Source: Hyphomicrobiales bacterium (GTDB lineage: Bacteria > Pseudomonadota > Alphaproteobacteria > Rhizobiales > Rhizobiaceae). From it: a DNA stretch of 64,000 bases. The notes under the pieces are model-generated. The model was not told the origin of the DNA, did no database searches, and worked only from the letters and a program-made list of their open reading frames with translations. The stretch covers positions 62,358-126,357 of the forward strand of contig UCMW01000005.1 of the NCBI GenBank assembly GCA_900473745.1. Direction: 5' to 3'. This document shows, piece after piece, positions 9,806 to 29,531 of this stretch; within the stretch, counting starts at the first letter, position 1, and each line of letters starts with the position of its first letter. Made by a program: the position numbers and the translations under genes.

Positions 9806-9864
9806 TAAGTTCGTCCTCCTCCTGAAAAACCGATTGGCCCGTGGACCGGCCCGAAAAGATGAAT

Positions 9865-10209
9865 TTATGCCGTCGCCTCGGGAATGCTGGGCTCGGATAG
9901 AGACTCCCCGGCGATCACACCCTTGCCACCCGGCGCACCGTCTGCAGCATCGGCCCCGACACCGACGGAACCGGCATCAGGGGATCCCGGACGCTTGACC
10001 CTGCTGGATGCCTCGATCACCAGTGGTAGGAATCCGGAATCTGGTTCATCGATCATATCGAAGAAGCGACGGCGCATGCGCGTTTCCCAGAACTTGTTAA
10101 TATGCGTGGCCACGCCGTCCACCCGGACATCCTCCGGCTGCGACAGGAAGAACGTGGCGATCTGATTGGCCATTCGAACGATTTTGGCGTCGGTGCTGGT
10201 CTCAGACAT
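9865..10209 (-). CDS. fdsD: Formate dehydrogenase delta subunit
   Basis: The first ~70 residues match FdsD: KIVRMANQIATFFLSQPED, then HINKFWETRMRRRFF. Known for the family: FdsD is a small protein required for active NAD-dependent formate dehydrogenase and acts with FdsC/FdhD in handling the Mo-bis-MGD cofactor, as shown for Rhodobacter capsulatus. At 114 residues this copy is longer than usual. About 45 C-terminal residues form a Gly/Ala/Ser/Pro-rich tail with no recognisable fold. The start overlaps the fdhD stop by 8 bases, so the two are translationally coupled. Confidence 0.88.
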   Translation of the reverse strand: MSETSTDAKIVRMANQIATFFLSQPEDVRVDGVATHINKFWETRMRRRFFDMIDEPDSGFLPLVIEASSRVKRPGSPDAGSVGVGADAADGAPGGKGVIAGESLSEPSIPEATA

Positions 10210-11032
10210 GCATCGGTGCTCCTTCAGCCACCCGATCCGGCCGGGTAAAAATCTCGAAATCCTCGTCGCGTGCGATTCCGATCAGCGTGATCCCCGCTGC
10301 AGTCGCAGTCCGGATGGCCAGAGCCGTCGGCGCGGAGATTGCAATCAGGATTGGCGCGCCGAGCGCTGCCGTCTTCTGCACCATCTCGACGGAGAGACGG
10401 CTGGTGACGACCACCGCGCCGAGATTAGCCGCCCAGCCACCGAGCAGCACCGCGCCAACGAGCTTGTCGAGCGCGTTGTGGCGGCCGACATCCTCGCGGA
10501 TTGCGACCAGCCCCTCATGCGGACAGTAAAAACCGGCCGCATGCACGGCACGTGTCTGACGGTTGAGATCCTGGGCCGCCGCCAGCATCGACGTGGCATC
10601 GGCGATCTCGCGTGCCGTCAGGCGGACATGGTCTGACCCCACGGACCGCACTGCGCGAGTGGCCTGCTCGATCGACTCGATGCCGCAAAGACCGCAGCCA
10701 ACGGGCCCGGCCATGCGCCGGCGTCGGGCAATCAACGCATCCGCGGTCATGTCCTTCAGCGTCACCTGGACGTCGATGCCCTCGCCAGCCTCGATGGCCT
10801 CGATAGCGACCACCTCATCGGCCCGTTCGATAATGCCCTCGGCGAGCGAGAAGCCGACGGCGAAATCCTCGAGATCATCCGGGCTCGCCATCATCACGGC
10901 GTGCGTAGAGCCGGCATAGGAGAAGGCGATCGGCACCTCTTCGGGCACGAACCGGCTGCTGCTCGAAACGAGCCCCCGGCTCGCCTTGAGCCCGCCGACC
11001 ATGCGCGCCGTGGAGCCGATCACATGCTTCAT
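10202..11032 (-). CDS. fdhD: Formate dehydrogenase accessory sulfurtransferase FdhD (FdsC)
   Basis: A 276-residue FdhD-family protein. It carries persulfide sulfur from a cysteine desulfurase to the molybdenum cofactor of formate dehydrogenase. The hallmark loop GCGLCG holds the two functional cysteines, C113 and C116. The conserved block EDVGRHNALDKLVG near residue 180 and VVTSRLSVEMVQKTA near 210 also fit the family. The start overlaps the fdsA stop by 4 bases (ATGA) and the end overlaps fdsD by 8 bases. In the fds nomenclature of R. capsulatus this position is fdsC. Confidence 0.95.
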   Translation of the reverse strand: MKHVIGSTARMVGGLKASRGLVSSSSRFVPEEVPIAFSYAGSTHAVMMASPDDLEDFAVGFSLAEGIIERADEVVAIEAIEAGEGIDVQVTLKDMTADALIARRRRMAGPVGCGLCGIESIEQATRAVRSVGSDHVRLTAREIADATSMLAAAQDLNRQTRAVHAAGFYCPHEGLVAIREDVGRHNALDKLVGAVLLGGWAANLGAVVVTSRLSVEMVQKTAALGAPILIAISAPTALAIRTATAAGITLIGIARDEDFEIFTRPDRVAEGAPMHV

Positions 11033-13911
11033 TCTGCCGCTTCCAGCTTACCGACGATACGGCGGGACTGGCGCGACAGCTCCTCATAGTCCTCCTGCCA
11101 TTCCGTCGGCCCGTTCGACGGCGAGATCTGCACGGCAGTGACCTTGTATTCGGGGCAGTTGGTTGCCCAGTCCGAGAAGTCTGTCGTGATGACATTCGCC
11201 TGCGTGTTCGGGTGATGGAAGGTCGTATAGACCACGCCCGGCGCCACGCGATCCGTGATCAGGGCGCGAAGCGTCGTATCGCCCGCGCGGCTGGCGAGCT
11301 TGATCCAGTCGCCGTCCTTGACGCCACGCTGTTCGGCGTCGTGCGGATGGATCTCGAGCAGATCCTCCTGGTGCCAGATGACATTCTCGGTACGCCGCGT
11401 TTGCGCGCCGACATTGTACTGGGACAGGATGCGCCCGGTCGTCAGCAGCAGCGGGAAGCGCGGGCCGGTGCGTTCGTCGGTCGCGACATATTCGGTGCGG
11501 ATGAACTTGCCCTTGCCGCGCACGAAACCATCGACATGCATGATCGGCGATCCCACAGGGAATTTCTCGTTGCAGGGCCACTGCACCGAGCCCATCTTCT
11601 CGAGATAATCGTAGGAGACCCCGGCAAAGCTCGGCGTGGTCGCGGCGATCTCATCCATGATCTGCGACGGATGGGTGTAATTCCAGGTGAGCCCCATGGC
11701 CTGGGCAAGCTTCTGGGTCACTTCCCAGTCCGCATAGCCGTTCTTCGGGCTCATGACCTTGCGCACGCGGTTGATGCGGCGCTCGGCATTGGTGAAGGTG
11801 CCGTCCTTCTCCAGGAAAGTTGAGCCCGGCAGGAAGACATGGGCGTAGTTGGCGGTTTCGTTGAGGAAGAGGTCGTGCACCACGACGCATTCCATCGCAG
11901 CGAGTCCGGCCGAGACGTGCTTCGTGTCGGGGTCGGACTGCAGAATGTCCTCGCCCTGGATGTAGATGCCCTTGAACGAACCATCGACAGCGGCATCCAG
12001 CATGTTCGGGATGCGCAGGCCCGGCTCGTTGCTCAGTTCGACACCCCAGAGCTTTTCGAAAGTCTCGCGCGTCGCATCATCGGACACGTGACGGTAACCG
12101 GGCAGCTCGTGCGGGAACGAACCCATGTCGCAGGAGCCCTGGACATTGTTCTGCCCGCGCAGCGGGTTCACGCCGACGCCGGGCCGGCCGATATTGCCGG
12201 TGACCATCGCGAGGTTGGCGATTGCCATGACGGTGGTCGAACCCTGACTGTGTTCGGTGACGCCAAGGCCGTAATAGATCGCGCCATTGCCGCCGGTGGC
12301 GAACAGACGAGCAGCGCCGCGCAGATCCGCGGCCGGCACGCCGGTAAACTTTTCCGTCTCTTCGGGCGAATGCTCGGGCTCGGCGACGAAGGCCGCCCAA
12401 TCTTCAAATTCAGACCAGTCGCAGCGCTCGCGAATGAAAGCCTCGGCGAACAGACCTTCCGTGACGATGACATGGGCCAGCGCCGTCATGACCGCGACAT
12501 TGGTGCCGGGCTTCAGCGGCAGGTGGAAGGCCGCCTCCACATGCGGTGTACGCACGAGATCGATGCGGCGCGGATCGATGACGATCAGCTTGGCACCCTG
12601 GCGGAGCCGCTTCTTCAGGCGAGAGCCGAAGACCGGGTGGCCATCGGTCGGATTGGCGCCGATAACCACGACCACGTCGGAGTGCTCGACACTGTCGAAA
12701 TTCTGCGTACCGGCCGACGTGCCGAAGGCCTGGCCCAGACCGTAGCCGGTCGGGGAATGGCAGACGCGGGCGCAGGTATCGACATTGTTGTTGCCGAAGC
12801 CGGCGCGGATCAGCTTCTGAACCAGATAGGTCTCTTCGTTGGTGCAGCGCGACGAGGTGATGCCGCCGATCGCTTCGCGGCCATACTGATACTGGATCCG
12901 GCGAAACTCGGAGGCTACATGTGCATAGGCCTCTTCCCAGGTCACTTCGCGCCAGGGATCGGTGATCTTTTCGCGCACCATCGGGTTGAGGATACGGTCC
13001 TTGTGGCTTGCGTAACCATAGGCGAACCGACCCTTGACACAGGAATGACCACGATTGGCCTGGCCGTCCTTCCAGGGCACCATGCGCACGAGTTCTTCGC
13101 CGCGCATCTCTGCCTTGAACGAGCAGCCGACGCCGCAATAGGCGCAGGTGGTGACGGCCGAATGCTCCGGCTGGCCAATTGATATCACGGATTTTTCCGT
13201 CAGCGTCGCGGTCGGGCAGGCCTGGACGCAGGCGCCGCAGGAGACGCATTCCGACGAGAGGAATGCTTCATGCGCACCGGGCGACACACGGCTGTCGAAC
13301 CCGCGACCCTCGATGGTCAGCGCGAACGTACCCTGCACCTCTTCGCAGGCACGCACGCAGCGCGAACAGACGATGCATTTGGACGGGTCATAGGTGAAGT
13401 AGGGATTGCTCTCGTCCTTCGGCATCCACTGGGCGTTGATCCCGCCCTCGGTGGAACGCGCCTTGACGTGGTTCTCGCCTTCATAGCCGTAACGCACGTC
13501 GCGCAGGCCAACGGCACCCGCCATGTCCTGCAGCTCGCAGTCGCCATTGGCCGCACAGGTCAGACAGTCGAGCGGGTGGTCGGAGATGTAGAGTTCTATC
13601 ACGCCCTTACGGATGGCCTTCAGCCGCTCCGTCTGGGTATGAACGACGAGGCCAGGCGCAACCGGTGTGGTGCAGGAGGCCGGAGTGCCGTTGCGGCCCT
13701 CGACCTCGATCAGACAGAGGCGGCAAGAACCGAAGGCATCGACCATGTCTGTGGCGCAGAGCTTCGGCACCTGAATGCCGGCCTCCATCGAGGCGCGCAT
13801 GATCGACGTGCCCTCGGGAACCGTGATCTCGCGGCCATCGATGGTGAGCGTCACCATTTTTTCGGAGCGGGACGCCGGTGTGCCAAAGTCGATTTCAGGA
13901 ACGAGGGGCAT
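11029..13911 (-). CDS. fdsA: NAD-dependent formate dehydrogenase alpha subunit (Mo-bis-MGD)
   Basis: The catalytic subunit, 960 residues (normal for FdsA). It oxidises formate to CO2 at a Mo-bis-MGD centre. The cofactor sites are visible in order: an N-terminal [2Fe-2S] cluster (C52, C63, C66, C80); a His/Cys cluster (H112, C116, C119, C125); two ferredoxin [4Fe-4S] clusters (C179/182/185/189 and C222/225/228/232); and a cluster at C256/259/263/291 next to the active site. The metal ligand is C384 with H385 (ARVCHSP), corresponding to the Sec-His pair of E. coli FdhF, so this is a cysteine enzyme. The electron route through FdsB to NAD is known for the family. Its stop overlaps the fdhD start by 4 bases. 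Confidence 0.97.
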   Translation of the reverse strand: MPLVPEIDFGTPASRSEKMVTLTIDGREITVPEGTSIMRASMEAGIQVPKLCATDMVDAFGSCRLCLIEVEGRNGTPASCTTPVAPGLVVHTQTERLKAIRKGVIELYISDHPLDCLTCAANGDCELQDMAGAVGLRDVRYGYEGENHVKARSTEGGINAQWMPKDESNPYFTYDPSKCIVCSRCVRACEEVQGTFALTIEGRGFDSRVSPGAHEAFLSSECVSCGACVQACPTATLTEKSVISIGQPEHSAVTTCAYCGVGCSFKAEMRGEELVRMVPWKDGQANRGHSCVKGRFAYGYASHKDRILNPMVREKITDPWREVTWEEAYAHVASEFRRIQYQYGREAIGGITSSRCTNEETYLVQKLIRAGFGNNNVDTCARVCHSPTGYGLGQAFGTSAGTQNFDSVEHSDVVVVIGANPTDGHPVFGSRLKKRLRQGAKLIVIDPRRIDLVRTPHVEAAFHLPLKPGTNVAVMTALAHVIVTEGLFAEAFIRERCDWSEFEDWAAFVAEPEHSPEETEKFTGVPAADLRGAARLFATGGNGAIYYGLGVTEHSQGSTTVMAIANLAMVTGNIGRPGVGVNPLRGQNNVQGSCDMGSFPHELPGYRHVSDDATRETFEKLWGVELSNEPGLRIPNMLDAAVDGSFKGIYIQGEDILQSDPDTKHVSAGLAAMECVVVHDLFLNETANYAHVFLPGSTFLEKDGTFTNAERRINRVRKVMSPKNGYADWEVTQKLAQAMGLTWNYTHPSQIMDEIAATTPSFAGVSYDYLEKMGSVQWPCNEKFPVGSPIMHVDGFVRGKGKFIRTEYVATDERTGPRFPLLLTTGRILSQYNVGAQTRRTENVIWHQEDLLEIHPHDAEQRGVKDGDWIKLASRAGDTTLRALITDRVAPGVVYTTFHHPNTQANVITTDFSDWATNCPEYKVTAVQISPSNGPTEWQEDYEELSRQSRRIVGKLEAAE

Positions 13912-13974
13912 GATAACCTCCGGGTCAGTCTTTTCGCTGCGGAACAGGCCGCGCGGAACAAGTTTGTGTCTGCG

Positions 13975-14190
13975 TCAGGATTTCATCTCGGCGAGCGTCG
14001 CCGCGACGATGGCATTGGCATGACCATGGCCGAGACCGTGATCAGTCTTCAGCAAGGTGACGATCTGCATATGCGTCTTACCTTGCTGCTGCCGGACGAT
14101 GTCCTGCCAGTGCTGGATCGGCTTTCCATAGGTCTTCTCGATCGATGGAAAGTAGGAGGCCGGTCCCTTGACCTTCGTTGCGTCACTCAT
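13975..14190 (-). CDS. DUF4287 domain protein inside the formate dehydrogenase operon
   Basis: A 71-residue soluble protein whose start codon overlaps the fdsB stop (ATGA), so it is a genuine coupled gene and not a shadow. It matches the DUF4287 pattern: KGPASYFPSIEKTYGKPIQHW near the N-terminus and LKTDHGLGHGHANAIVA at residues 47-63, with a His-rich GLGHGHAN motif. The function of this family is unknown to me. The gene sits between the NADH-binding subunit (fdsB) and the catalytic subunit (fdsA), 63 bases before fdsA. That placement suggests a role in assembly or stability of formate dehydrogenase, but this is inference from position only. The longer in-frame extension upstream runs through fdsB and is rejected. 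Confidence 0.85.
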   Translation of the reverse strand: MSDATKVKGPASYFPSIEKTYGKPIQHWQDIVRQQQGKTHMQIVTLLKTDHGLGHGHANAIVAATLAEMKS

Positions 14191-15755
14191 TCGGCTGCCT
14201 CCCGGACCGGCGTCGGCGCAAAGTCTTCCGGAAAATGTGTCATGGCACTCATGACCGGATAGGGCGTGAAGCCACCGAGTGCGCAAAGCGAGCCGAACTT
14301 CATGGTGTTGCAGAGATCTTCCAGCAACACCTTGTTCTTCTCCGGCTCGATGCCTTGGGCGATCTTGTCGACCGTCTCGACGCCGCGCGTCGAGCCAATG
14401 CGGCAGGGCGTGCACTTGCCGCAGCTTTCGACGGCACAGAATTCCATGGCGAAACGCGCCTGTTTCAGCATGTCAGCCGTATCGTCGAAGACCACAACGC
14501 CGGCATGGCCGATCAGGCCACCGGCGGCGGTAAAGGCTTCGTAGTCGAAGATCGTGTCAAACAGCGAAGGCGGGAAATAGGCGCCGAGCGGCCCGCCGAC
14601 CTGAACGGCCTTGACCGGACGGCCGGAGATCGTGCCGCCGCCGATCTGGTTGATCAGCTGGCCGAGCGGCAGGCCGAAAGCGGTTTCATAGAGGCCGCCA
14701 TGCTTGAGATTTCCAGCGAGTTGGATCGGGATCGTGCCATGCGAACGACCGACGCCGAAGTCGCGGTAGAACTGCGCGCCACGATCCATGATGACGGGGA
14801 TGGAGGCGAGCGACATGACGTTGTTGACGACTGTCGGCTTGCCGAAAAGACCTTGGAGGGCCGGCAGCGGCGGCTTGGCACGCACCACGCCGCGCTTGCC
14901 TTCGAGGCTGTTGAGCAGCGAGGTCTCTTCACCGCAGACATAGGCGCCGGCGCCCATGCGCACTTCCATGTCGAAGGCGTAAGCGGAACCCAATACGGAG
15001 GCACCGAGAATGCCCTCGCGCCTTGCGATCTCGATCGCCTCTTCCATGACGGCAATGGCATGCGGATATTCGGAGCGGGTGTAGACATAGCCCTTGGTGG
15101 CACCGGTCGCGATGCCGGCAATCGCCATGCCTTCGATCAGCACGAAAGGATCGCCTTCCATGATCATCCGGTCGGCAAAGGTGCCGCTGTCGCCCTCGTC
15201 GGCATTGCAGACGATGTATTTCTGGTCGGCCTGCGCATCCGCAACCGTTTTCCACTTGATGCCGGTCGGGAAGCCGGCGCCGCCGCGACCACGCAGGCCG
15301 CTGTCGGTGACCTGTTTGACGATATCGACAGGCGCCATGGCGATGGCATTGGCGAGGCCTTTGAGCCCCTGATAGTGCCGGTAATCATCGAGCGACAGAG
15401 GATCGGTCACGCCACAGCGGGCGAAGGTAAGCCGCGTCTGCCCCTTGAGGAAGGGAATATCCTGGGTCGGACCGTGGCCGAGCGGATGCGCACCGCCGGT
15501 CAGGAAGCCCGCATCGAAGAGCGAAGGCACGTCGGAAGCTTTGACCGGACCATAGGCGACGCGCCCCCTGTCGGTGCGCACCTCCACCAGCACTTCGAGC
15601 CACAGCATGCCACGCGACCCGTTACGGACGATGGTGACATCCTGACCGCGGGCGTTCGCCTCGCGCTCAATCGCAGCAGCGACTTTATCCGCGCCGACGG
15701 CCAAGGCCGCGGCATCGCGGGGAACGAAGACAACGACGGTTTCTGGCACGCTCAT
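14187..15755 (-). CDS. fdsB: NAD-dependent formate dehydrogenase beta subunit (diaphorase)
   Basis: The 522-residue NADH/FMN subunit, related to NuoF. An N-terminal thioredoxin-like region (1-~110) precedes the NuoF core: GLRGRGGAGFPTGIKW (FMN/NADH site), YIVCNADEGDSGTFADR (FMN site) and GAGAYVCGEETSLLNS. The C-terminal [4Fe-4S] cluster is ESCGKCTPCRIG plus a later Cys in the LCALGG segment. It passes electrons from the alpha subunit to NAD+. The start overlaps the fdsG stop (4 bases) and the stop overlaps the DUF4287 gene (4 bases), forming a chain of coupled genes. Confidence 0.97.
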   Translation of the reverse strand: MSVPETVVVFVPRDAAALAVGADKVAAAIEREANARGQDVTIVRNGSRGMLWLEVLVEVRTDRGRVAYGPVKASDVPSLFDAGFLTGGAHPLGHGPTQDIPFLKGQTRLTFARCGVTDPLSLDDYRHYQGLKGLANAIAMAPVDIVKQVTDSGLRGRGGAGFPTGIKWKTVADAQADQKYIVCNADEGDSGTFADRMIMEGDPFVLIEGMAIAGIATGATKGYVYTRSEYPHAIAVMEEAIEIARREGILGASVLGSAYAFDMEVRMGAGAYVCGEETSLLNSLEGKRGVVRAKPPLPALQGLFGKPTVVNNVMSLASIPVIMDRGAQFYRDFGVGRSHGTIPIQLAGNLKHGGLYETAFGLPLGQLINQIGGGTISGRPVKAVQVGGPLGAYFPPSLFDTIFDYEAFTAAGGLIGHAGVVVFDDTADMLKQARFAMEFCAVESCGKCTPCRIGSTRGVETVDKIAQGIEPEKNKVLLEDLCNTMKFGSLCALGGFTPYPVMSAMTHFPEDFAPTPVREAAE

Positions 15756-17787: not shown

Positions 17788-18804
<1,017 letters not shown>

Positions 18805-18874
18805 TCACATTCGCGTCAGATGCGCATGGCGCAGGCCGATCCCCTCTGATTTAATATCGAGAACACGAAATGAG

Positions 18875-19816
18875 ATGGTGCGAAAGATCATGAGACGGCT
18901 GCCGGCCCTGTCCGCGATGAAGGTGTTCGAGGTGGTCGGCCAGACCCGGAGCTTCACCCGTGCCGCGGAATTGCTGAACTTGACCCAGAGTGCTGTCAGC
19001 CGTCAGGTGCGCAATCTTGAGGAACAGCTGGGCGAAACACTCGTCATCCGCCGGCATCATCACCTCGAGCTGACCGCCTCGGGCGCCGAACTGCTCGCCT
19101 CGCTGCAGCACGCCTTCCACACGGTGGAGATGACCGTTCGCAATATCCGCGAGAAAAGCAATCTCCGCCGTCTCCGGATCAACGTGCCGCCGACCTTTGC
19201 CAAGCGCTGGTTGATGCCGCGGCTGATGAGCCTCAGAGCCTTCCTGCCCGACGTTGATCTCAGCATCACCACCGATCTCGAGGACAATCTTTCGGAACGA
19301 GGCATGCTGGACTGCGCCATCCGTTTCGGCGACGGGGAGTGGCCGAGCCTGCGCTCGGAACGGCTGTTCACGGAACGCCATATCGCCGTCTGCGCTCCGC
19401 ATCTCATGGAAAGCCTGCGGGACGAAGAGGCAATCGATCTCTCCCGCTTCACCTTCCTGCATGTGCTGGCTTCTGCCGATCAGCGGTATCTCACCTGGCA
19501 GCGCTGGCTGGATGCGGCGGGCCTCACTGAAACAGACACGCAAGGCGGACTGGAGTTCGACCTGCTCGATCTCGTCATCGAAGCCGCCTGCAACGGGCTC
19601 GGGGTCGCGGTGGCCGACAGGTCGATGGTCGCCCCCCTGATGCAGACCGGAGCGCTCACCCAAGTGCTGGATGTCGAGGTCGAGGGCCACGAATCCTACT
19701 GGCTCGTGATGCGAACCGATCGGACGCTGTCCCCGCATGTCGAGGCGCTCAGACGCTGGCTGAACCATGAAATCGGCACAGGCTCGATGCCGGCACTCAG
19801 GCAAGCGAACGCCTGA
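18875..19816 (+). CDS. LysR family regulator (GcvA-like)
   Basis: A 313-residue LysR-type regulator of the GcvA-like subgroup. It starts PALSAMKVFEVVGQTRSFTR, followed by the HTH (LLNLTQSAVSRQVRNLEEQL) and an effector domain with the subgroup's LRINVPPTFAKRWLMPRL. A second in-frame ATG at 18890 is an equally plausible start. It heads a same-strand run with the aldehyde dehydrogenase, enolase-superfamily and GMC genes and is divergent from the lactate dehydrogenase gene, so it probably regulates one or both. The effector is unknown. Confidence 0.88.
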   Translation: MVRKIMRRLPALSAMKVFEVVGQTRSFTRAAELLNLTQSAVSRQVRNLEEQLGETLVIRRHHHLELTASGAELLASLQHAFHTVEMTVRNIREKSNLRRLRINVPPTFAKRWLMPRLMSLRAFLPDVDLSITTDLEDNLSERGMLDCAIRFGDGEWPSLRSERLFTERHIAVCAPHLMESLRDEEAIDLSRFTFLHVLASADQRYLTWQRWLDAAGLTETDTQGGLEFDLLDLVIEAACNGLGVAVADRSMVAPLMQTGALTQVLDVEVEGHESYWLVMRTDRTLSPHVEALRRWLNHEIGTGSMPALRQANA

Positions 19817-19917
19817 AACATTCCTTTTCGGAATGCTTAACCCGACAATAAGTCGCTTGCGAAGCAGGAGCAGCGACTTCCTACTTGGGCGTACTGTCCG
19901 TTGCCGGAGCGCCTGCC

Positions 19918-21342
19918 ATGTCCACCTTCCAGAACTTCATCGCCGGATCGTTTCGAGATACGGGGCCACGCCCGACGATCGAGGTGAAGAACCCTGCCAC
20001 TGGTCGGGTCTTTGCATCGGTCACCTCGGCGACGGAAGCCGATGTCATCGAGGCGGTGGACGCAGCCGCTGCTGCCCAGAAGCCGTGGGGCCGCCTGCCG
20101 GCCATCTATCGCGGCAATGCACTCCGCAGGCTCGCCGATGCCGTCGAGCGCCATCAGCAGAAGATCGGCGCTGCATTGGCCCAGGAATCCGGCAAGAGCC
20201 TCGAGGATGCCGTGGCCGAAACCGGCTATGGCGTTGAACTGATGCGCTATCACGCCGAATGGGCGCGCCGCGTCGAGGGCGAGGTGATCGAGAGCGACAC
20301 ACCTGATGAAACGCTGATGTTGAAGCGCGCCCCGATCGGCGTCGTCGCCTGCCTCATCCCCTTCAACTTCCCGATCTACACGTTGGTGCGCAAGATTGCC
20401 CCGGCATTGATCACCGGCAATGCCGTGGTTGTCCGGCCCAGCAACAACACGCCAACTTCGGCCTTTGTCTTCGCCGAAGCGATCCATGAAGCGGACCTTC
20501 CGGTCGGTCTCATCAGCATCATGGCGATGAGTCACGATGTCGCGCAGGTCATTTGCACCCGGCGTGAGGTCGGCATGATCACCCTGACCGGTAGCGTCGC
20601 CGCAGGCCAGGTCGTACTCGACTACTGCAAGACGAATATCGCCAAGCCATCGCTGGAATTGGGCGGCAAGACGCCTGTGATCGTCGAGCCGGATGCCGAT
20701 CTTGATGTGGTGACGAAAGGCGTGCTCGCCGCAAAGACCGCCCATTGCGGCCAGGTCTGCACCTCCGTCGAGCGGCTCTACGTGCATGCCTCCGTGCATG
20801 GCACGCTTCTCGCCAAGCTGAAGGACGCTTTCGAGCGCCGCCACTATGGTGATCGTGCCGAGGACCCGACACACATGGGACCGCTCGCGAATGCTGCAGC
20901 CCGCCTCAGGGTTCATCATATGGTCGAACGGGCCAAGGCCGATGGCGCAGTGATCGAGACGGGTGGCTTCCTGCCCGCAGGCGACGGCTATTTCTATCCG
21001 CCGACACTGCTCTCCGACTGCCGCCAGGACATGGAGATCGTCCAGGAGGAGGTCTTCGGCCCCGTACTCGCGGTCATTCCCTATACCGATTTCGACGAGG
21101 CGCTTGCCATGGCAAGCGACCACCAGTTCGGCCTCGCCTCCGTCGTCTTTACCGAGAACTACCACAAGGTGATGAAGGCCGCGAACGAGATCGAAGCGGG
21201 CGAACTCTACATCAACCGCTTCCCGGCCGACCCTTATCAAGGCTACCACGCGGGCTGGAAGCGCTCCGGCCTTGGCGGCGACGACGGCAAGCACGGCATG
21301 CTGGAATTCACCCAGACCCGCCTCGTCATCCTCAAACACTGA
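19918..21342 (+). CDS. Aldehyde dehydrogenase (AldA/lactaldehyde dehydrogenase-like)
   Basis: A 474-residue NAD(P)-dependent aldehyde dehydrogenase from the ATG at 19918. Catalytic residues: N150 (PFNFPIY), E248 (LELGGKTP) and nucleophile C281 (CGQVCTSVERLYV). The CGQVC-xx-ER context and overall pattern resemble E. coli AldA, which oxidises lactaldehyde and glycolaldehyde. An oddity is the nucleotide-binding motif. The usual KPSE reads RPSN here (R173, N176), replacing both the Lys and Glu that contact the adenosine ribose; this may alter NAD versus NADP use. The next gene starts 42 bases after its stop. The actual substrate is unknown and is likely an aldehyde made in the sugar-acid pathway of the neighbours. 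Confidence 0.87.
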   Translation: MSTFQNFIAGSFRDTGPRPTIEVKNPATGRVFASVTSATEADVIEAVDAAAAAQKPWGRLPAIYRGNALRRLADAVERHQQKIGAALAQESGKSLEDAVAETGYGVELMRYHAEWARRVEGEVIESDTPDETLMLKRAPIGVVACLIPFNFPIYTLVRKIAPALITGNAVVVRPSNNTPTSAFVFAEAIHEADLPVGLISIMAMSHDVAQVICTRREVGMITLTGSVAAGQVVLDYCKTNIAKPSLELGGKTPVIVEPDADLDVVTKGVLAAKTAHCGQVCTSVERLYVHASVHGTLLAKLKDAFERRHYGDRAEDPTHMGPLANAAARLRVHHMVERAKADGAVIETGGFLPAGDGYFYPPTLLSDCRQDMEIVQEEVFGPVLAVIPYTDFDEALAMASDHQFGLASVVFTENYHKVMKAANEIEAGELYINRFPADPYQGYHAGWKRSGLGGDDGKHGMLEFTQTRLVILKH

Positions 21343-21384
21343 TCGCCGATTAGCCGGCTCAAGAATTCTTCATCGGGGGCATCC

Positions 21385-22602
21385 ATGAAAGTCGCTTCGC
21401 TCAAGACACACGTTGTCGCCACGCCCGCACCGCATATCGGCGGCATGTACTGGATCTTCGTCGAACTGGAGACGGCCTGCGGCATCAAGGGCGTCGGCGA
21501 GATCTACTCGACTGCCTTCCATCCCTCGGGCATCGCCGTCCTCGTCGAAGACGTCTTCACCCGCTATCTCGAAGGTCACGATCCGCACCAGATCGAGCGC
21601 TTCTGGCGCGCCGCCTATTCGAGCGGTTTCACCCAGCGGCCTGATCCCACCATGGTCGGGATCATCTCCGGTCTCGAAATCGCCTGCTGGGACATCATCG
21701 GCAAGGCGGCGGGACGGCCGGTCGCCGATCTGCTCGGTGGGCCAGTCTTCGAGAAGCTGCGCGCCTATACCTATCTCTATCCGAAGAACGCGGCCGGCGA
21801 ATATGATTACAACGACCCGGATCTCGCCGCCGAAGAGGCGATCCGCATGGTCGATGCCGGCTTCACCGCGCTGAAATTCGACCCGGCCGGCCCCTATACC
21901 AACTATTCCGGTCATCAGCTGTCGCTGCCCGTCATGGATCGCTGCGAAGAGTTCTGCCGCAAGATCCGTGATGCTATAGGCAACCGCGCCGACATCCTCT
22001 TCGGCACCCATGGCCAGATGGTCCCGTCCTCGGCGATCCGTCTCGCCAAGCGGCTGGAAAAGTATGATCCGCTCTGGTTCGAGGAGCCCGTTCCGCCCGG
22101 CCAGGAAGCGGCGATGGCGGAAGTCGCCCGCGCCACCTCGATCCCCGTCTCGACGGGCGAGCGTCTGACGACGAAATACGAGTTCCAGCGAGTATTGCAA
22201 CTCGGCTCGGCCTCCATCCTGCAGATGAATGTCGCACGCGTCGGCGGCTTGCTGGAGGCGAAGAAGATCGCCGGGATGGCCGAGTCCTTCTATGCGCAGA
22301 TTGCGCCCCACCTTTACAACGGCCCGGTCGGGGCGGCAGCCTCGATCCAGCTCGCCGCAACCTGCCCGAACTTCCTCATCCATGAGGCGATCATGGATTT
22401 CGGCGGCTTCCATGCCGAGGTGCTGAAGACAAAACTCGGCTTCGACGATGGATATCTGATCCCCTCGCGCGAACCTGGCCTCGGCATCGAGCTGAACCAC
22501 GACGTTATTGCCCTCCACACGCCCTATACCGGCGACAGGCTGCATCTGCAGATGGCGCCGGAGCATGCCGATGTGAAGGCCTTCATGCCGGCCAAAGGCT
22601 GA
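21385..22602 (+). CDS. Mandelate racemase/muconate lactonizing (enolase superfamily) enzyme
   Basis: A 405-residue enolase-superfamily protein with an N-terminal capping domain (1-~125) and a TIM barrel. It is closest in pattern to galactonate-type sugar-acid dehydratases: K164 (LKFD) on strand 2, E233/E234 (WFEEP), E259 (STGER) and H309 (APHL). Two positions differ from the family. The Asp metal ligand at the end of the third strand (D-x-N/H in relatives) reads G207-T208-H209, and the Asp of the His-Asp dyad (usually LQPD) reads LQMN (N282). It probably dehydrates or cycloisomerises a sugar acid, with metal binding that may use H209. It is flanked by an aldehyde dehydrogenase and a GMC oxidoreductase in one probable operon. 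The substrate is not identifiable. Confidence 0.85.
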   Translation: MKVASLKTHVVATPAPHIGGMYWIFVELETACGIKGVGEIYSTAFHPSGIAVLVEDVFTRYLEGHDPHQIERFWRAAYSSGFTQRPDPTMVGIISGLEIACWDIIGKAAGRPVADLLGGPVFEKLRAYTYLYPKNAAGEYDYNDPDLAAEEAIRMVDAGFTALKFDPAGPYTNYSGHQLSLPVMDRCEEFCRKIRDAIGNRADILFGTHGQMVPSSAIRLAKRLEKYDPLWFEEPVPPGQEAAMAEVARATSIPVSTGERLTTKYEFQRVLQLGSASILQMNVARVGGLLEAKKIAGMAESFYAQIAPHLYNGPVGAAASIQLAATCPNFLIHEAIMDFGGFHAEVLKTKLGFDDGYLIPSREPGLGIELNHDVIALHTPYTGDRLHLQMAPEHADVKAFMPAKG

Positions 22603-22612
22603 GGGACACTCC

Positions 22613-24232
22613 ATGATCTTCGATTTCATCGTGGTCGGTGCAGGCTCCGCAGGCTGCATCGTGGCCAGCCGCCTGAGTGAAAGCGGGCGTCATTCCGTGC
22701 TGCTCATCGAGGCCGGCGGCGAAGACAAGTCCTTCTGGTTCAAGATCCCGGTCGGCTACGCCAAAAGCTACTACAATCCCAGGGTCAACTGGATGTACCG
22801 GACAGAGCCGGAGGCCAACCTCGGCGGTCGGCGCATCTATGCCCCGCGCGGCAAGGTGCAGGGCGGCTCCGGCTCGATCAATGCCATGGTTTTCGTGCGG
22901 GGTGCCGCAGAAGATTTCGAAGACTGGCGGGCCGCCGGCAATCCCGGCTGGGGCTTCGACGAAGTGCTGCCTTTCTTCCGCAAGCTCGAGACCCATGCGC
23001 GGGGAGAAAGCCCCTGGCATGGCGACAACGGTCCGATCCACGTGACACCGATGCGTGGTGCCACACATCCGGTGAGCGACGCCTTTCTCGACGCCTGCGA
23101 CGAACTCGGTATCCCGCTGAACGAGGATTTCAACGGCGCGACGATCGCAGGCGCTGGCGTCTATGACGTCAATACAAGGCGCGGCCAGCGTTCGCATTCA
23201 AGCGCCGAGTATCTGCGCCCTGCCCTGAAGCGACCCAACCTCTCCATCGAGCGCCAGGCGCATGCCCGACGTTTGCTGATCGAACAGGATGGCCGTGTTT
23301 CCGGCGTCGAGGTCATCCAACGTGGCGAGGTCCGGAAGTTTACGGCGCGCCGCGAGGTCGTTCTCGCGGCAGGCGCGGTCGATACGCCGAAACTGATGCA
23401 ACTCTCTGGCCTCGGGGATGGGTGCCAGCTCTTTGTTCACGGCATCGAGACGCGCAAACACCTGCCGGCCGTCGGCAAGAACCTGCAGGACCATCTCTGC
23501 ACCAGCTTCTATTACCGTTCGAAACAGCCGACACTGAATGGCGAATTCGCGAGCCTCATCGGCCAGGCCCGCTTCGGCCTGACATGGCTCCTGAAGCGCA
23601 GCGGCCCCTTCGCCATGAGCGTGAACCAGGCCGGTGGCTTCTTCCGCGGATCGCCTGAGGAGACGCGGCCGAACATTCAGGTTTATTTCAACCCGCTCTC
23701 CTATCGGATCCCGGACAGTCCCAAGGCCAGCCTGACCCCGGAGCCCTATCCGGGCTTCCTCATCGCGTTCAACGCCTGCCGGCCAACCAGCAAAGGCACG
23801 ATTTCGATTGCCTCGCCCGAGGCTTCAGACGCCCCGCTTATCCGACCGAACTACCTGTCGACGGATCGCGATATCCAGGAAGTCTTGCAGGGGAGCCGGC
23901 TGATGCGACGCATCGCGGACGCGCGGGCTCTCGATGGTTGGGTGGAGGAGGAAGTGTCGCCCTCCAAGGCTGCCGATACCGATGACAAGCTGCTCGACTA
24001 TTTCCGTCTCAACAGCGGCTCGATCTATCACCTCTGCGGAACCTGCGCGATGGGCAGCGATCCCCGCGAGTCCGTGGTCGACGCCCGCCTCAGGGTGCAT
24101 GGTGTGCCGGGGCTGCGTGTCGTAGACGCCTCCGTCTTCCCCAACATCACCGCTGGCAACATCAATGCACCGACGATGATGGTTGCGGAAAAGGGTGCGG
24201 CGATGATCCTCGAAGACACCACGTCTGTCTGA
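22613..24232 (+). CDS. GMC family FAD-dependent oxidoreductase (choline/alcohol dehydrogenase-like)
   Basis: A 539-residue glucose-methanol-choline oxidoreductase. The FAD dinucleotide fold is at the N-terminus (VVGAGSAGCIVASRL, residues 7-21, plus the E33 region LLIEAGGED). GMC signature 1 is RGKVQGGSGSINAM (79-92) and signature 2 lies near 253-267 (GAVDTPKLMQLSG). The active-site pair is H473 (IYHLCGTCAMG) and N518 (GNINAPTM). There is no signal peptide, so it is cytoplasmic or membrane-associated and passes electrons to a quinone or other acceptor. It follows the enolase-superfamily gene by 10 bases. It probably oxidises a polyol or sugar alcohol feeding the pathway; choline is unlikely without bet genes nearby. 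Confidence 0.9.
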   Translation: MIFDFIVVGAGSAGCIVASRLSESGRHSVLLIEAGGEDKSFWFKIPVGYAKSYYNPRVNWMYRTEPEANLGGRRIYAPRGKVQGGSGSINAMVFVRGAAEDFEDWRAAGNPGWGFDEVLPFFRKLETHARGESPWHGDNGPIHVTPMRGATHPVSDAFLDACDELGIPLNEDFNGATIAGAGVYDVNTRRGQRSHSSAEYLRPALKRPNLSIERQAHARRLLIEQDGRVSGVEVIQRGEVRKFTARREVVLAAGAVDTPKLMQLSGLGDGCQLFVHGIETRKHLPAVGKNLQDHLCTSFYYRSKQPTLNGEFASLIGQARFGLTWLLKRSGPFAMSVNQAGGFFRGSPEETRPNIQVYFNPLSYRIPDSPKASLTPEPYPGFLIAFNACRPTSKGTISIASPEASDAPLIRPNYLSTDRDIQEVLQGSRLMRRIADARALDGWVEEEVSPSKAADTDDKLLDYFRLNSGSIYHLCGTCAMGSDPRESVVDARLRVHGVPGLRVVDASVFPNITAGNINAPTMMVAEKGAAMILEDTTSV

Positions 24233-24244
24233 CATCAGCGCATG

Positions 24245-24272
24245 AAAAAAGCCGGACTTGAAAGTCCGGCTT
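24245..24272 (-). terminator. Intrinsic terminator of the atp operon (bidirectional)
   Basis: AAGCCGGACT and AGTCCGGCTT form a perfect 10-bp stem around TGAA. On the minus strand it is followed by a run of six T residues, the classic intrinsic form, 27 bases after the atpC stop. It may also serve the converging GMC gene, whose stop is just 12 bases away. Confidence 0.9.
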
Positions 24273-24299
24273 CAACTCTTGTCCGTCGTGACCTGCCGA

Positions 24300-24707
24300 T
24301 CAGGCAGCGACGAGAACGCCGTTCAGGTTGGTCAGCTCGGCGAGATACTGTTCGAGCTTGGTGCGGTGTTCGTGATGCTCGACACCTTCCAGTTCCTTGC
24401 GGGCTTCGTCAATGCGCTTGGTAAGCGTGTCAGGCGAGATCTCCGAAAGCGGAACGGCGGATTCGGCAAGCAGCGTGCAGCCGGTCGGCAGGACGTCCGC
24501 GAAACCACCGAAGACCACATACTTGGAAACCTGGCCGGAGGCGAGCTTCACGGTCACCACGCCCGGCTTGATCGTCGTCATGGTCGGCGCATGATTGGCC
24601 ATGACGGTCATTTCGCCTTCCGTTGCCGGAATGACGACTTCGATCACCTGTTCGGAGAGCAGAAGACGCTCGGGCGAAACGAGCTCAAAGTTGAAATTGT
24701 CGGCCAT
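24300..24707 (-). CDS. atpC: F1F0 ATP synthase epsilon subunit
   Basis: A 135-residue epsilon subunit, part of the F1 central stalk and a regulator of ATP hydrolysis. The N-terminal beta sandwich shows FELVSPERLLLSEQ and GEMTVMANHAPTMTT-like conserved features. The C-terminal helical part (~85-130) contains the usual KRIDEARKELE helix. It is the last gene of atpHAGDC, 69 bases after atpD, and is followed by an intrinsic terminator. Confidence 0.96.
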   Translation of the reverse strand: MADNFNFELVSPERLLLSEQVIEVVIPATEGEMTVMANHAPTMTTIKPGVVTVKLASGQVSKYVVFGGFADVLPTGCTLLAESAVPLSEISPDTLTKRIDEARKELEGVEHHEHRTKLEQYLAELTNLNGVLVAA

Positions 24708-24776
24708 GGTCGTTCACTTCTCTGATGAAGGATTAAGCGACACGCGAGTGATCCCGCGTGCCGGCATTCCCTGTAC

Positions 24777-26258
<1,482 letters not shown>

Positions 26259-26264
26259 TTAACC

Positions 26265-27143
26265 TCAGAGCGCTTCCGCGCCCGAAATGATTTCAATGAG
26301 TTCCTTGGTGATCTGCGCCTGACGCTGGCGGTTGTACGAAAGCGTCAGCTTGTTGATCATCTCACCGGCATTGCGTGTCGCATTGTCCATGGCGCTCATC
26401 TTGGCGCCCATTTCACCCGCGACATTTTCGAGCAGGGCCCGGAAAATCTGAACCGAGATGTTACGCGGAATGAGATCCGTAAGGATCCCCGCCGCATCCG
26501 GCTCGTATTCGTACAGAGCAGCCGCGCCGTCCTGAGCAGGCGTCTCGGCCGGAGCAGCCGGGATGATCTGCTGGGCGGTCGGGATCTGGCTGATCACAGA
26601 CTTGAACTCGGAATAGAACAAGGTGCAGACGTCGAATTCGCCACGATCGAACATGCCGATAACCTTGCGGCTAATGGCATCAGCGTCGGCGAAACCGATA
26701 CGCTTCACCTCACGGAGGTCCGTGCGCTCAACGATCATGTCGGCGAATTCGCGACGCAGGCTGTCATAGCCCTTCTTGCCAACGCAGAAGAACTTGACCG
26801 TCTTGCCCTGGGCCAGCAGCTTGCGTGCGTGGTCACGAGCAAACCGTGCGATCGACGAGTTGAAGCCGCCGCAAAGACCGCGCTCGGCGGTGCAGACGAC
26901 GAGCAGATGCACGTCATCCTTGCCGTTGCCGGTCATCAGACGCGGCGCGCTGTCATCCGAACCGACGGCCTGAGCAATGTTCGCCAGGACGATACCCATG
27001 CGCTGGGAGTACGGGCGAGCAGCCTCGGCCGCCTCCTGCGCACGACGCAGCTTCGCCGCGGCGACCATTTTCATCGCCTTGGTGATCTTCTGCGTCGCCT
27101 TGACGGAGGCGATCCGGTTTTTCAGATCCTTAAGTGAAGGCAT
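26265..27143 (-). CDS. atpG: F1F0 ATP synthase gamma subunit
   Basis: The 292-residue central rotor shaft of F1. The conserved N-terminal coil ([20 protein letters not shown]) and C-terminal coil ([20 protein letters not shown]) pack together inside the alpha3beta3 ring. The Rossmann-like middle includes the [10 protein letters not shown] loop. An alphaproteobacterial insertion rich in Ala/Pro lies around residues 193-212. It is placed between atpA and atpD in the normal order. Confidence 0.97.
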
Positions 27144-27172
27144 CCGTTATCCGTCCTTGGCTTGAGCCTGAA

Positions 27173-28702
27173 TTAGGCGAAGTTCTTCGCGAAGCTATCG
27201 AGAGCGGCCTTGAGCTTGCCCTTGGTATCGTCGCTGATCGCCTTTTCTGTGCGGATGGCGTCGAGAATGGCCTTGCCTTCCGAATGGAGGTAGGAAAGCA
27301 GGCCATGTTCGAACTTGCCAACCTGGCTCACGGCGATCTTGTCGAGATAGCCGTTAACGCCGGCGAAGATGACCGCAACCTGTTCTTCCGTCTTCAGCGG
27401 CGAGAACTGCTGCTGCTTCAGAAGTTCCGTCAGGCGCGCACCACGATTCAGCAAGCGCTGGGTGGCGGCGTCTAGGTCGGAACCGAACTGGGCGAAGGCG
27501 GCCATTTCGCGATACTGGGCAAGCTCGCCCTTGATCGAACCGGCAACCTGCTTCATCGCCTTGACCTGAGCGGCAGAACCAACGCGCGAAACCGACAGAC
27601 CGACGTTAACGGCCGGACGGATGCCTTGGTAGAACAGGTCGGTTTCGAGGAAGATCTGGCCGTCGGTGATCGAGATCACGTTGGTCGGGATGAAGGCAGA
27701 CACGTCGTTACCCTGGGTTTCGATGACCGGCAGAGCCGTCAGCGAACCGTTACCAGCAGCATCGCCCATCTTGGCGGCGCGCTCAAGTAGACGCGAATGC
27801 AGATAGAAAACGTCGCCCGGGTAGGCTTCGCGACCCGGCGGGCGGCGCAGCAGAAGCGACATCTGACGGTAGGCGACAGCCTGCTTCGACAGGTCATCGT
27901 AAGCGATCAGGGCGTGCATGCCGTTGTCGCGGAAGTATTCGCCCATGGCGCAACCGGCGAACGGGGCCAGGTACTGCATCGGGGCCGGATCGGACGCGGT
28001 GGCCGCGATGATGATCGAGTACTGCAGGGCGCCACGCTCTTCGAGAACCTTGACGAACTGAGCAACGGTCGAACGCTTCTGGCCGATAGCCACGTAAACG
28101 CAGTACAGCTTTTCGTTTTCCGGACCGTTGTCATGCACGGCCTTCTGGTTAAGGAAGGTGTCGAGAATAATGGCGGTCTTGCCGGTCTGACGGTCGCCGA
28201 TGACGAGCTCGCGCTGGCCACGGCCAACCGGGATAAGGGCGTCGATGGCCTTGAGGCCGGTTGACATCGGCTCATGAACCGACTTGCGCGGGATGATACC
28301 CGGAGCCTTGACGTCAACGCGCGAACGCCTTGCAGCATTGATCGGACCCTTGCCGTCGATCGGATTGCCGAGCGCGTCGACGACGCGGCCAAGCAGTTCA
28401 GGACCAACCGGAACGTCGACGATGGCGCCGGTCCGCTTGACGATGTCGCCTTCCTTGATGCCACGGTCGGCACCGAAGAGAACCACGCCGACATTGTCGG
28501 CTTCGAGGTTGAGCGCCATACCGCGAATGCCGCCCGGGAATTCGACCATTTCACCGGCCTGGACGTTGTCGAGGCCGTAGACGCGGGCGATACCGTCACC
28601 GACGGACAGAACCTGACCGACTTCGGAGACTTCTGCCTCCTTGCCGAAGTTCTTGATTTGATCTTTCAGAATTGCGGAAATTTCCGCGGCGCGGATATCC
28701 AT
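27173..28702 (-). CDS. atpA: F1F0 ATP synthase alpha subunit
   Basis: The 509-residue non-catalytic nucleotide-binding subunit of F1. The P-loop is [11 protein letters not shown] near residue 170; [20 protein letters not shown] and the arginine-finger region [17 protein letters not shown] are intact. Its start overlaps the atpH stop by one base (TGATG), so translation is coupled. Confidence 0.98.
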
Positions 28703-29268
28703 CAGCCAACCTCTTTCAGTGCAAGCTTAAGGGTGGAAAGTTTGGTGCGAAGGGACGTGTCGATCTGGCGCGAGCCGACCTTGACGATCAGGCCGCCGAG
28801 CAGGGAGGGATCGACCGTAACGGAGATCGAGACTTCCTTGCCGGTCACGCCCTTCAGCGCCGCTTTCAGTTCGGTTTCCTGCTCAGCCGTAAGGGCATGA
28901 GCAGAGGTGACGTCAGCCGTCACTTCGCCCTTATGACGGGCAACGATCTGGCGATAGGCAGCCACCATGCCGGGAGCGGCAAACAGGCGGCGATTGCTGG
29001 CAACGACCTTCAGGAAGTTCAACACCAGCGCATTGAAGCCGGCCTTTTCGCCGATCGTGCTGATGGCCTTCACCTGATCTTCGGCCGTGAAGACGGGCGA
29101 CTGTACCAGTCGCTTCAGATCGTCGCTCTCGTCGATCATCGCCTGGAAGCGGTTGAGATCGGCAGCCACGGCGTCGATCGCGCCGCCTTCGAGCGCAAGC
29201 TCGAAAAGCGACGAAGCGTAACGCTCAGCCACGCCTGAAATCACTTGGGATGCGTCTGCCACGGGCAA
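28702..29268 (-). CDS. atpH: F1F0 ATP synthase delta subunit (TTG start)
   Basis: The 188-residue peripheral-stalk subunit that ties F1 to F0. An N-terminal helical bundle ([19 protein letters not shown]) and the C-terminal conserved [20 protein letters not shown] are clear. No ATG lies near the conserved N-terminus. The TTG at 29268, which gives MPVADASQ as in other rhizobial AtpH, follows CAGGGAATTTT and is taken as the start; a GTG two codons later is the alternative. It is the first gene of the F1 operon. F0 genes (atpBEF) are absent here, as is usual in Rhizobiales, where F0 is encoded elsewhere. Confidence 0.93.
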
Positions 29269-29531
29269 AAAATTCCCTGATTTGGATCCAGGTCGCCGGA
29301 CACCTCGGGAGAGGCCTCTCAAACTCCTGATATCGTTTTGTTTTCCCCAAAAACACAGGCGTGTTACGCTCGCGTTTTCCGAATTTCGCGGTTCGTCTAG
29401 CATAGCAGGTCTAGACTCGCAACACGCGTATTAAAGGTTTGCTCCTTGAGAGCAAGGCCCGGCAGCGTTTTTTTGTCCGAAACCGAGTCAATTCGACGAG
29501 ATGGGCCGCAGCCGCGGCTCCAAAGCGATCT

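Follow-up and report, generated by a model that had tools for sequence, protein, structure and literature searches.

Genes of the locus and their conserved neighbourhood

The enolase-superfamily gene studied here lies on the forward strand of the window (the whole stretch of 64,000 nucleotides of DNA that was analysed), in the gene order LysR regulator, aldehyde dehydrogenase (ALDH), enolase and GMC alcohol dehydrogenase, with gaps of 42 bases before the enolase gene and 10 bases after it. These genes, and the enolase codons discussed below, are as follows.

18875..19816, + strand: LysR-family regulator, the probable regulator of the operon (domain and profile matches; a frequent neighbour)
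19918..21342, + strand: AldA-like aldehyde dehydrogenase, with TTG at 19885 as an alternative open start (profile and PDB matches; a conserved neighbour)
21385..22602, + strand: enolase-superfamily protein of the mandelate racemase subgroup, GTHGQ clade, 405 aa (intact ORF, Pfam, alignment)
21874..21882, + strand: codons K164-F165-D166, where barrel strand 2 ends; D166 in 72/72 clade rows against 2/15 outgroup rows (alignment)
22003..22011, + strand: codons G207-T208-H209, where barrel strand 3 ends (C-terminal side); Gly in place of the metal Asp, with the D-x-H histidine retained (alignment and AF2 model; coordinates counted from the ORF start)
22081..22083, + strand: codon E233, kept metal ligand, end of strand 4 (alignment, AF2 model)
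22159..22161, + strand: codon E259, kept metal ligand, strand 5 (alignment)
22228..22230, + strand: codon N282, slot of the dyad Asp, labile in the clade (N/A/D/Q) (alignment, tree)
22309..22311, + strand: codon H309, dyad His, invariant in 72 rows (alignment)
22613..24232, + strand: GMC-family (choline-dehydrogenase-like) alcohol dehydrogenase (profile and PDB matches; a conserved neighbour)

The MR_MLE fold of the window protein was recognised by Pfam, with PF13378 (201.5 bits) and PF02746 (51.6 bits) both above their cut-offs, and a structural search placed the protein by fold in the mandelate racemase subgroup (Z of 63 to PDB entry 4e4u and of about 46 to GalD-type and ManD structures). 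The protein is a member of a distinct branch of this subgroup, kin to the galactonate and mannonate dehydratases. No reaction was assigned to it by NCBIfam, since all 12 of the 12 models that it matched scored below their cut-offs. The D-galactonate dehydratase model NF010624 gave 242.1 against a cut-off of 311, and the D-mannonate dehydratase model NF043051 gave 159.6 against 550. Comparison with galactarolactone cycloisomerase (4ggb/4hpn) gave 118.6 bits, a Z of 45.5 and 30% identity, values that describe overall similarity and not the catalytic residues.

The nearest PDB relative of the ALDH is E. coli AldA, and its score with NF007497 was 500.4 bits for a cut-off of 500, while the GMC enzyme is nearest to a chloramphenicol-inactivating oxidoreductase and to choline dehydrogenase. 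Orthologue clusters built on the window and 80 named loci, which are best matches biased to close relatives and include several short contigs, contained the ALDH in 75 of the 81, the GMC enzyme in 72, the LysR regulator in 52 and a carrier of the MFS type in 50. When tblastn was applied to the flanks of the 80 named loci alone, the ALDH and the GMC enzyme were each found in 76, the LysR regulator in 54, the MFS carrier in 50 and a 3-hydroxyisobutyrate-dehydrogenase-like gene in 12. LysR-ALDH-(MFS)-enolase-GMC is a conserved operon. The MFS carrier, which is absent from the window, showed a weak likeness to galactonate and phosphoglycerate carriers, far below cut-off, and a scan of positions 18700-24400 found no promoter or terminator.

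The operon (18875-24232) is flanked on one side by a gene of the lactate/malate dehydrogenase family on the reverse strand (17788-18798; Pfam) and on the other by genes that, by eye, are ATP synthase-like (24300-29403, reverse strand). The flanking clusters of the window recur in L064-L067 and L078, while the 86%-identical copies L068 and L134 are flanked differently. Elsewhere in the window (8153-15755, reverse strand), inspection of the translations by eye showed an MFS carrier like the oxalate/formate antiporter near NAD-dependent formate dehydrogenase-like genes.

Active-site residues and the GTHGQ clade

We aligned the window protein with E. coli galactonate dehydratase (DgoD/GalD) by pairwise BLASTP (33% identity). 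The alignment set GTHGQ against DFHGR, with G207 opposite D183 and H209 opposite H185, and it placed E233 and E259 opposite E209 and E235, N282 opposite D258 and H309 opposite H285. We take D183, E209 and E235 of DgoD to be its metal ligands and H285-D258 to be its His-Asp dyad. The three acids expected at the ends of strands 3, 4 and 5 are thus reduced to E233 and E259, with G207 at strand 3, and the dyad consists of H309 with N282 in the slot of its Asp. The sequence-only reading had listed K164, G207-T208-H209, E233/E234, E259, N282 and H309, and all were confirmed in the intact ORF; its statement that the usual Asp metal ligand is missing, and its statement that N282 replaces the dyad Asp, both agree with this alignment.

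It had also named D203 as a residue that might serve as the third ligand. In the AF2 model of the window protein (mean pLDDT 87.4), strand 2 comprises residues 162-165, strand 3 residues 203-207 and strand 4 residues 231-233. Because strand 3 spans 203-207, G207 lies at its active-site end, and D203 begins the strand at the opposite (N-terminal) end, remote from the mouth of the active site, which excludes D203 as the third ligand. An Asp is found at the D203 position in 5 of the 15 outgroup rows as well.

We then examined a tree of 87 rows (72 GTH and 15 outgroup) made with the motif columns removed by a quick SH-aLRT method. All 72 GTH rows fell on one side of a branch with an SH-aLRT value of 89, a moderate support obtained with long outgroup branches that carried warnings. 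As far as the sampled sequences indicate, loss of the strand-3 Asp marks one branch, and most simply the metal Asp would have been lost once. Over the whole tree, position 282 gained or lost Asp no fewer than six times, and Asp is present there in 7 of the 72 GTH rows. Since the GTH rows form one branch while position 282 changed repeatedly, the change of the dyad Asp is a loose trait, separate from the loss of the metal Asp and not distinctive of the clade.

The residues K164, D166, T208, H209, Q211, E233, E234, E259, R260, H309 and E334 were invariant in the 72 GTH rows. T208 and Q211 occurred in none of the 15 outgroup rows, and three other residues were likewise almost confined to the clade: Y130 (72/72 against 1/15), Y311 (71/72 against 2/15) and R285 (70/72 against 1/15). 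The active site was remodelled as a set. Comparison of the gene with seven close orthologues gave dN/dS values of 0.03-0.11 (seven comparisons). Because the catalytic residues are conserved in 72/72 rows and dN/dS is low, we conclude that the protein is under selection, as expected of an enzyme; the alignment of the relatives, together with these two results, rules out an artefact or a pseudogene.

Among 155 unique relatives from the collected loci, the alignment column showed GTHGQ in 130 and D (19) or E (6) in the other 25. When the rows were divided by identity, GTHGQ was present in 97/97 rows at 60% or more and in 33/58 rows below 60%. A further 40 superfamily members, drawn from hits of non-GTH type, carried an acid in the slot in every case, Asp in 33 and Glu in 7, although L327 is gappy there and its assignment is unsure. 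The dyad slot of the 130 GTH rows held N in 92, A in 26, D in 8 and Q in 4; the homologue L077, which is 79% identical, is one with D at position 282. A different group of the enolase superfamily (L021, L022, L025, L026 and L296-L299) has Glu for the strand-3 Asp (V-E-F-H-S) and K-I-W-P-F-D after strand 2.

The clade is widespread. In a sample of the class, 48 of 385 genomes matched a GTH query from L144 at E <= 1e-70, a count of similarity in which the motif was read in part of the matches; with the window protein as query the number was 50 and included G345 and G092, whose proteins L145 and L146 are D-x-H relatives. In a sample of the phylum, 39 of 398 genomes matched at E <= 1e-60, all with at least 50% identity and again with the motif read in part of the matches. 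Named genomes, scanned with two patterns of which one was the GTHGQ stretch itself, gave at least 594 pattern matches, of which 592 were confirmed as relatives and 80 were kept as the named loci; these 80 come from Rhizobium, Ensifer, Shinella, Caballeronia, Burkholderia, Pseudomonas, Halomonas, SUP05 and others. Within the genus of the window, a full-length copy of at least 86% identity was present in 13 of the 24 genomes, among them that of the window itself, and G016 and G018 held fragments at contig ends.

The window protein has all that defines the clade: GTHGQ after strand 3, K-x-D after strand 2 and a place in the single clade. A feature first described as that of one protein therefore proved to be clade-wide, and what lacks the three-acid site is a whole branch without an assigned reaction rather than one odd protein. 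In the open-licence PMC literature, no paper on the GTHGQ family was found among the matches listed. The earlier proposal of an undescribed reaction stands as far as NCBIfam and this literature go. H209, for which a new way of binding Mg had been put forward as one possibility, corresponds to the histidine that related dehydratases ordinarily have in D-x-H (10 of 15 outgroup rows) and needs no new role.

Proposed metal site and reaction

Five deposited structures share these features. Among the best-ranked PDB chains of the structural search, the closest fold was 4e4u (Z of 63.2), followed by 4e5t, 3rcy, 3t4w and 4j3z (Z of 58-63 for the five), with 72%, 61%, 51%, 50% and 49% identity to the window protein, respectively; next came putative dehydratases, the Mg-bound PRK14017 (GalD-type) structure 3rra and ManD structures. 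The five entries, described as putative mandelate racemase / muconate lactonizing proteins, have GTHGQ, K-F-D, E-E and H placed as in the window protein, and they were assigned to the branch by motif and similarity, the tree having been made from other sequences. Their titles, as printed (that of 4e5t being incomplete), name neither a reaction nor a metal, and none of the five codes was found in open-licence PMC papers. Homologues with the GTH motif, named in the sequence-only reading as a possible refutation if characterised, have thus been characterised structurally but not functionally.

Known enzymes resemble the window protein in part. GalD/DgoD shares its fold, the strand-2 Lys and the equivalents of H185, E209, E235 and H285, but D183 and D258 are replaced in the window protein, which has instead the clade-specific D166, T208, Q211, Y130, Y311 and R285. 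ManD/RspA shares the fold and the D-x-H histidine and also has a residue other than Asp in the dyad slot (T in E. coli RspA), but RspA retains the metal Asp. The D-x-H relatives L145 and L146 (about 38% identity) share K-x-D-P after strand 2, E-E and H, whereas they keep both the metal Asp and the dyad Asp and are without GTHGQ and the YTYLYP stretch.

The gene neighbours were compared with a matched control. The test set consisted of 40 of the 53 GTH loci that were fetched (12 were omitted for too little contig and one for a limit of 20 loci a batch), and each was paired with an equally long segment of its own contig, some 40 kb distant (n=40). The p-values serve as guides, since the probes come from family loci that partly overlap with the test set and the genomes are related to one another. 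A zinc alcohol dehydrogenase was present in 22/40 loci and 0/40 controls, the GMC enzyme in 8/40 and 1/40, and an alcohol dehydrogenase of either type in 30/40 and 1/40 (p=4.8e-12). Enrichment was also seen for 3-hydroxyisobutyrate-dehydrogenase-like genes (11/40 against 0/40, p=0.0004), for a PcaB-like lyase (9/40 against 0/40, p=0.0024) and for a second MFS gene, of Tet type (13/40 against 0/40, p=7.6e-5), the last two mainly in loci of the group f41. The ALDH (4/40 against 1/40) and the LysR regulator (5/40 against 1/40) were not significantly enriched in this set. The f41 loci (50-53% identity) are probably the Rhodobacteraceae group of 3rcy, 3t4w and 4j3z; unlike the window, they mostly have a zinc alcohol dehydrogenase beside the gene (17 of 20) and no GMC or ALDH homologue.

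The reading that we prefer, and hold tentatively together with its mechanism, is that of an active dehydratase-like enzyme which acts on an acid produced by alcohol oxidation and has a two-glutamate metal site. The dehydrogenases of the operon would turn a primary alcohol, R-CH2OH, into R-COOH. This acid would bind to a divalent metal whose protein ligands are E233 and E259, as modelled on galactonate dehydratase, with water or substrate oxygens occupying the place of the Asp at 207. After the same model, H309 and K164 would handle the alpha-proton, and H209 would be the general acid that expels the beta leaving group in a dehydratase-type beta-elimination, the role of the equivalent His in galactonate dehydratase. 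A hydroxy acid is the substrate type that fits the operon of the window best. For the two oxidations, an analogy is found in TRIS, which is oxidised to 2-hydroxymethylserine by TaoA, a choline-dehydrogenase-like GMC enzyme, and TaoB, an ALDH (PMC10848231).

The dehydratase-like reading is supported by the invariance of K164, H209, E233, E259, H309 and E334, by the fold matches, the low dN/dS and the single branch of the Asp loss, and by the conserved operon and the enrichment of alcohol dehydrogenases. Against it, the PDB titles without a bound metal fit weak or absent metal binding as well, and the ALDH was not enriched in the broader matched set. The base may also work otherwise than in GalD, as the dyad Asp of GalD is N or A in 118 of the 130 members. 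Function or substrate may, moreover, differ between lineages, given the zinc alcohol dehydrogenase, PcaB-like and Tet-type MFS genes of the f41 loci.

We consider it unlikely that the third ligand was relocated, so that D166, at the end of strand 2, or H209 binds the metal in a site of novel geometry (D/E/E or H/E/E). Both residues are invariant in the clade, and in the AF2 model D166 comes just after strand 2 on the active-site side. We take its place to be that of Lys166 in mandelate racemase (MR), and by MR geometry an Asp there would presumably be too short for direct contact with the metal. H209, for its part, is a normal histidine of the D-x-H type. Outside the clade, K-x-D was found together with an intact D/E-x-H motif in L145 and L146 (D-x-H), L295 (E) and L300 (D); because the two coexist there, D166 is not specific to the loss of the Asp and is probably older, and its candidacy as a late substitute is weakened.

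That the enzyme works with no tightly bound divalent metal, K164, R260 and others stabilising the enediolate in a chemistry, or on a substrate charge, unlike the superfamily norm, seems quite improbable. The ligand loss is fixed, T208, Q211, Y130, Y311 and R285 are fixed or nearly so alongside it, and the titles of the five structures, as printed, give no metal; but E233 and E259 are conserved in 72/72 rows, which would be odd if the metal were absent, and according to PMC6946804 every reaction known in the superfamily involves a divalent metal, as a rule Mg. A catalytically dead or non-enzymatic protein, for which the loss of one metal ligand and nothing else speaks, is scarcely credible beside the invariance of the other catalytic residues, the low dN/dS and a conserved metabolic operon.

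Leads to the substrate

Quaternary ammonium acids of the carnitine, betaine or trimethylaminoethylphosphonate type would be compatible with any of these accounts of the metal site, but action on them by the family, or by certain of its lineages, is rather unlikely. In L148, L149 and L224, all of group f41, the GTHGQ enolase gene is directly preceded by homologues of tmpA-tmpB. In L148 the TmpA score was 542.8 (cut-off 400) and the TmpB score 308.9 (cut-off 300) with the NCBIfam models of 2-trimethylaminoethylphosphonate dioxygenase and its partner oxygenase. L248 has a carnitine 3-dehydrogenase (633.6 against a cut-off of 592). Families related to quaternary amines were present in 6/40 loci and 0/40 controls (p=0.026), with a list that was picked after the loci had been viewed. 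The other 34 of the 40 loci had none of these genes; nor had the window, and few were found near the 80 named loci. Matches to Rieske proteins and flavoenzymes were far below the cut-offs of GbcA and others, and the PcaB-like genes were commoner. Genes of the ProV type (glycine-betaine ABC transporter) showed no enrichment, being present in 3/40 loci and 10/40 controls, and were dropped as a clue to the substrate.

In L148, L149 and L224 a zinc alcohol dehydrogenase gene precedes the enolase gene alongside the predicted tmpA-tmpB. The genes of L248 run in one direction, with the carnitine 3-dehydrogenase (497 aa, matching NF005716 over nearly its full length), a BKACE-family gene (below all cut-offs) and a zinc alcohol dehydrogenase ahead of the GTHGQ enolase. 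ProW/ProX genes occur near the gene in some Burkholderia loci, which are from related species and were excluded from the evidence.

Taken with some doubt, these results may mean that a branch spread across many proteobacterial genera fixed a departure from the three-acid site, as two Glu plus water or as a relocated ligand, for an undescribed step after alcohol oxidation, which in some lineages would belong to quaternary-ammonium or phosphonate catabolism. The superfamily is a textbook case of acids and bases varied around a fixed metal site, and an entire branch that has dispensed with one ligand of three puts the constancy of that site to the test. The five deposited structures make the question of the metal quickly answerable, and the conserved operon offers a defined route to the substrate.

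The PcaB-like genes would point to aromatic acids instead, and both leads are kept. These genes and the second MFS genes may be part of a neighbouring aromatic-acid cluster or of the pathway itself. In L148, the PcaB-like copy scored 284.5 against 355.75 with the best PcaB model, and the second MFS copy scored 326.7 against 475 with its best model, a Tet-type efflux protein; both were below every cut-off. In L148, L156, L157, L215, L216, L220, L222, L224, L226 and L227, the GTHGQ enolase gene has a PcaB-like lyase gene no more than about 6 kb away.
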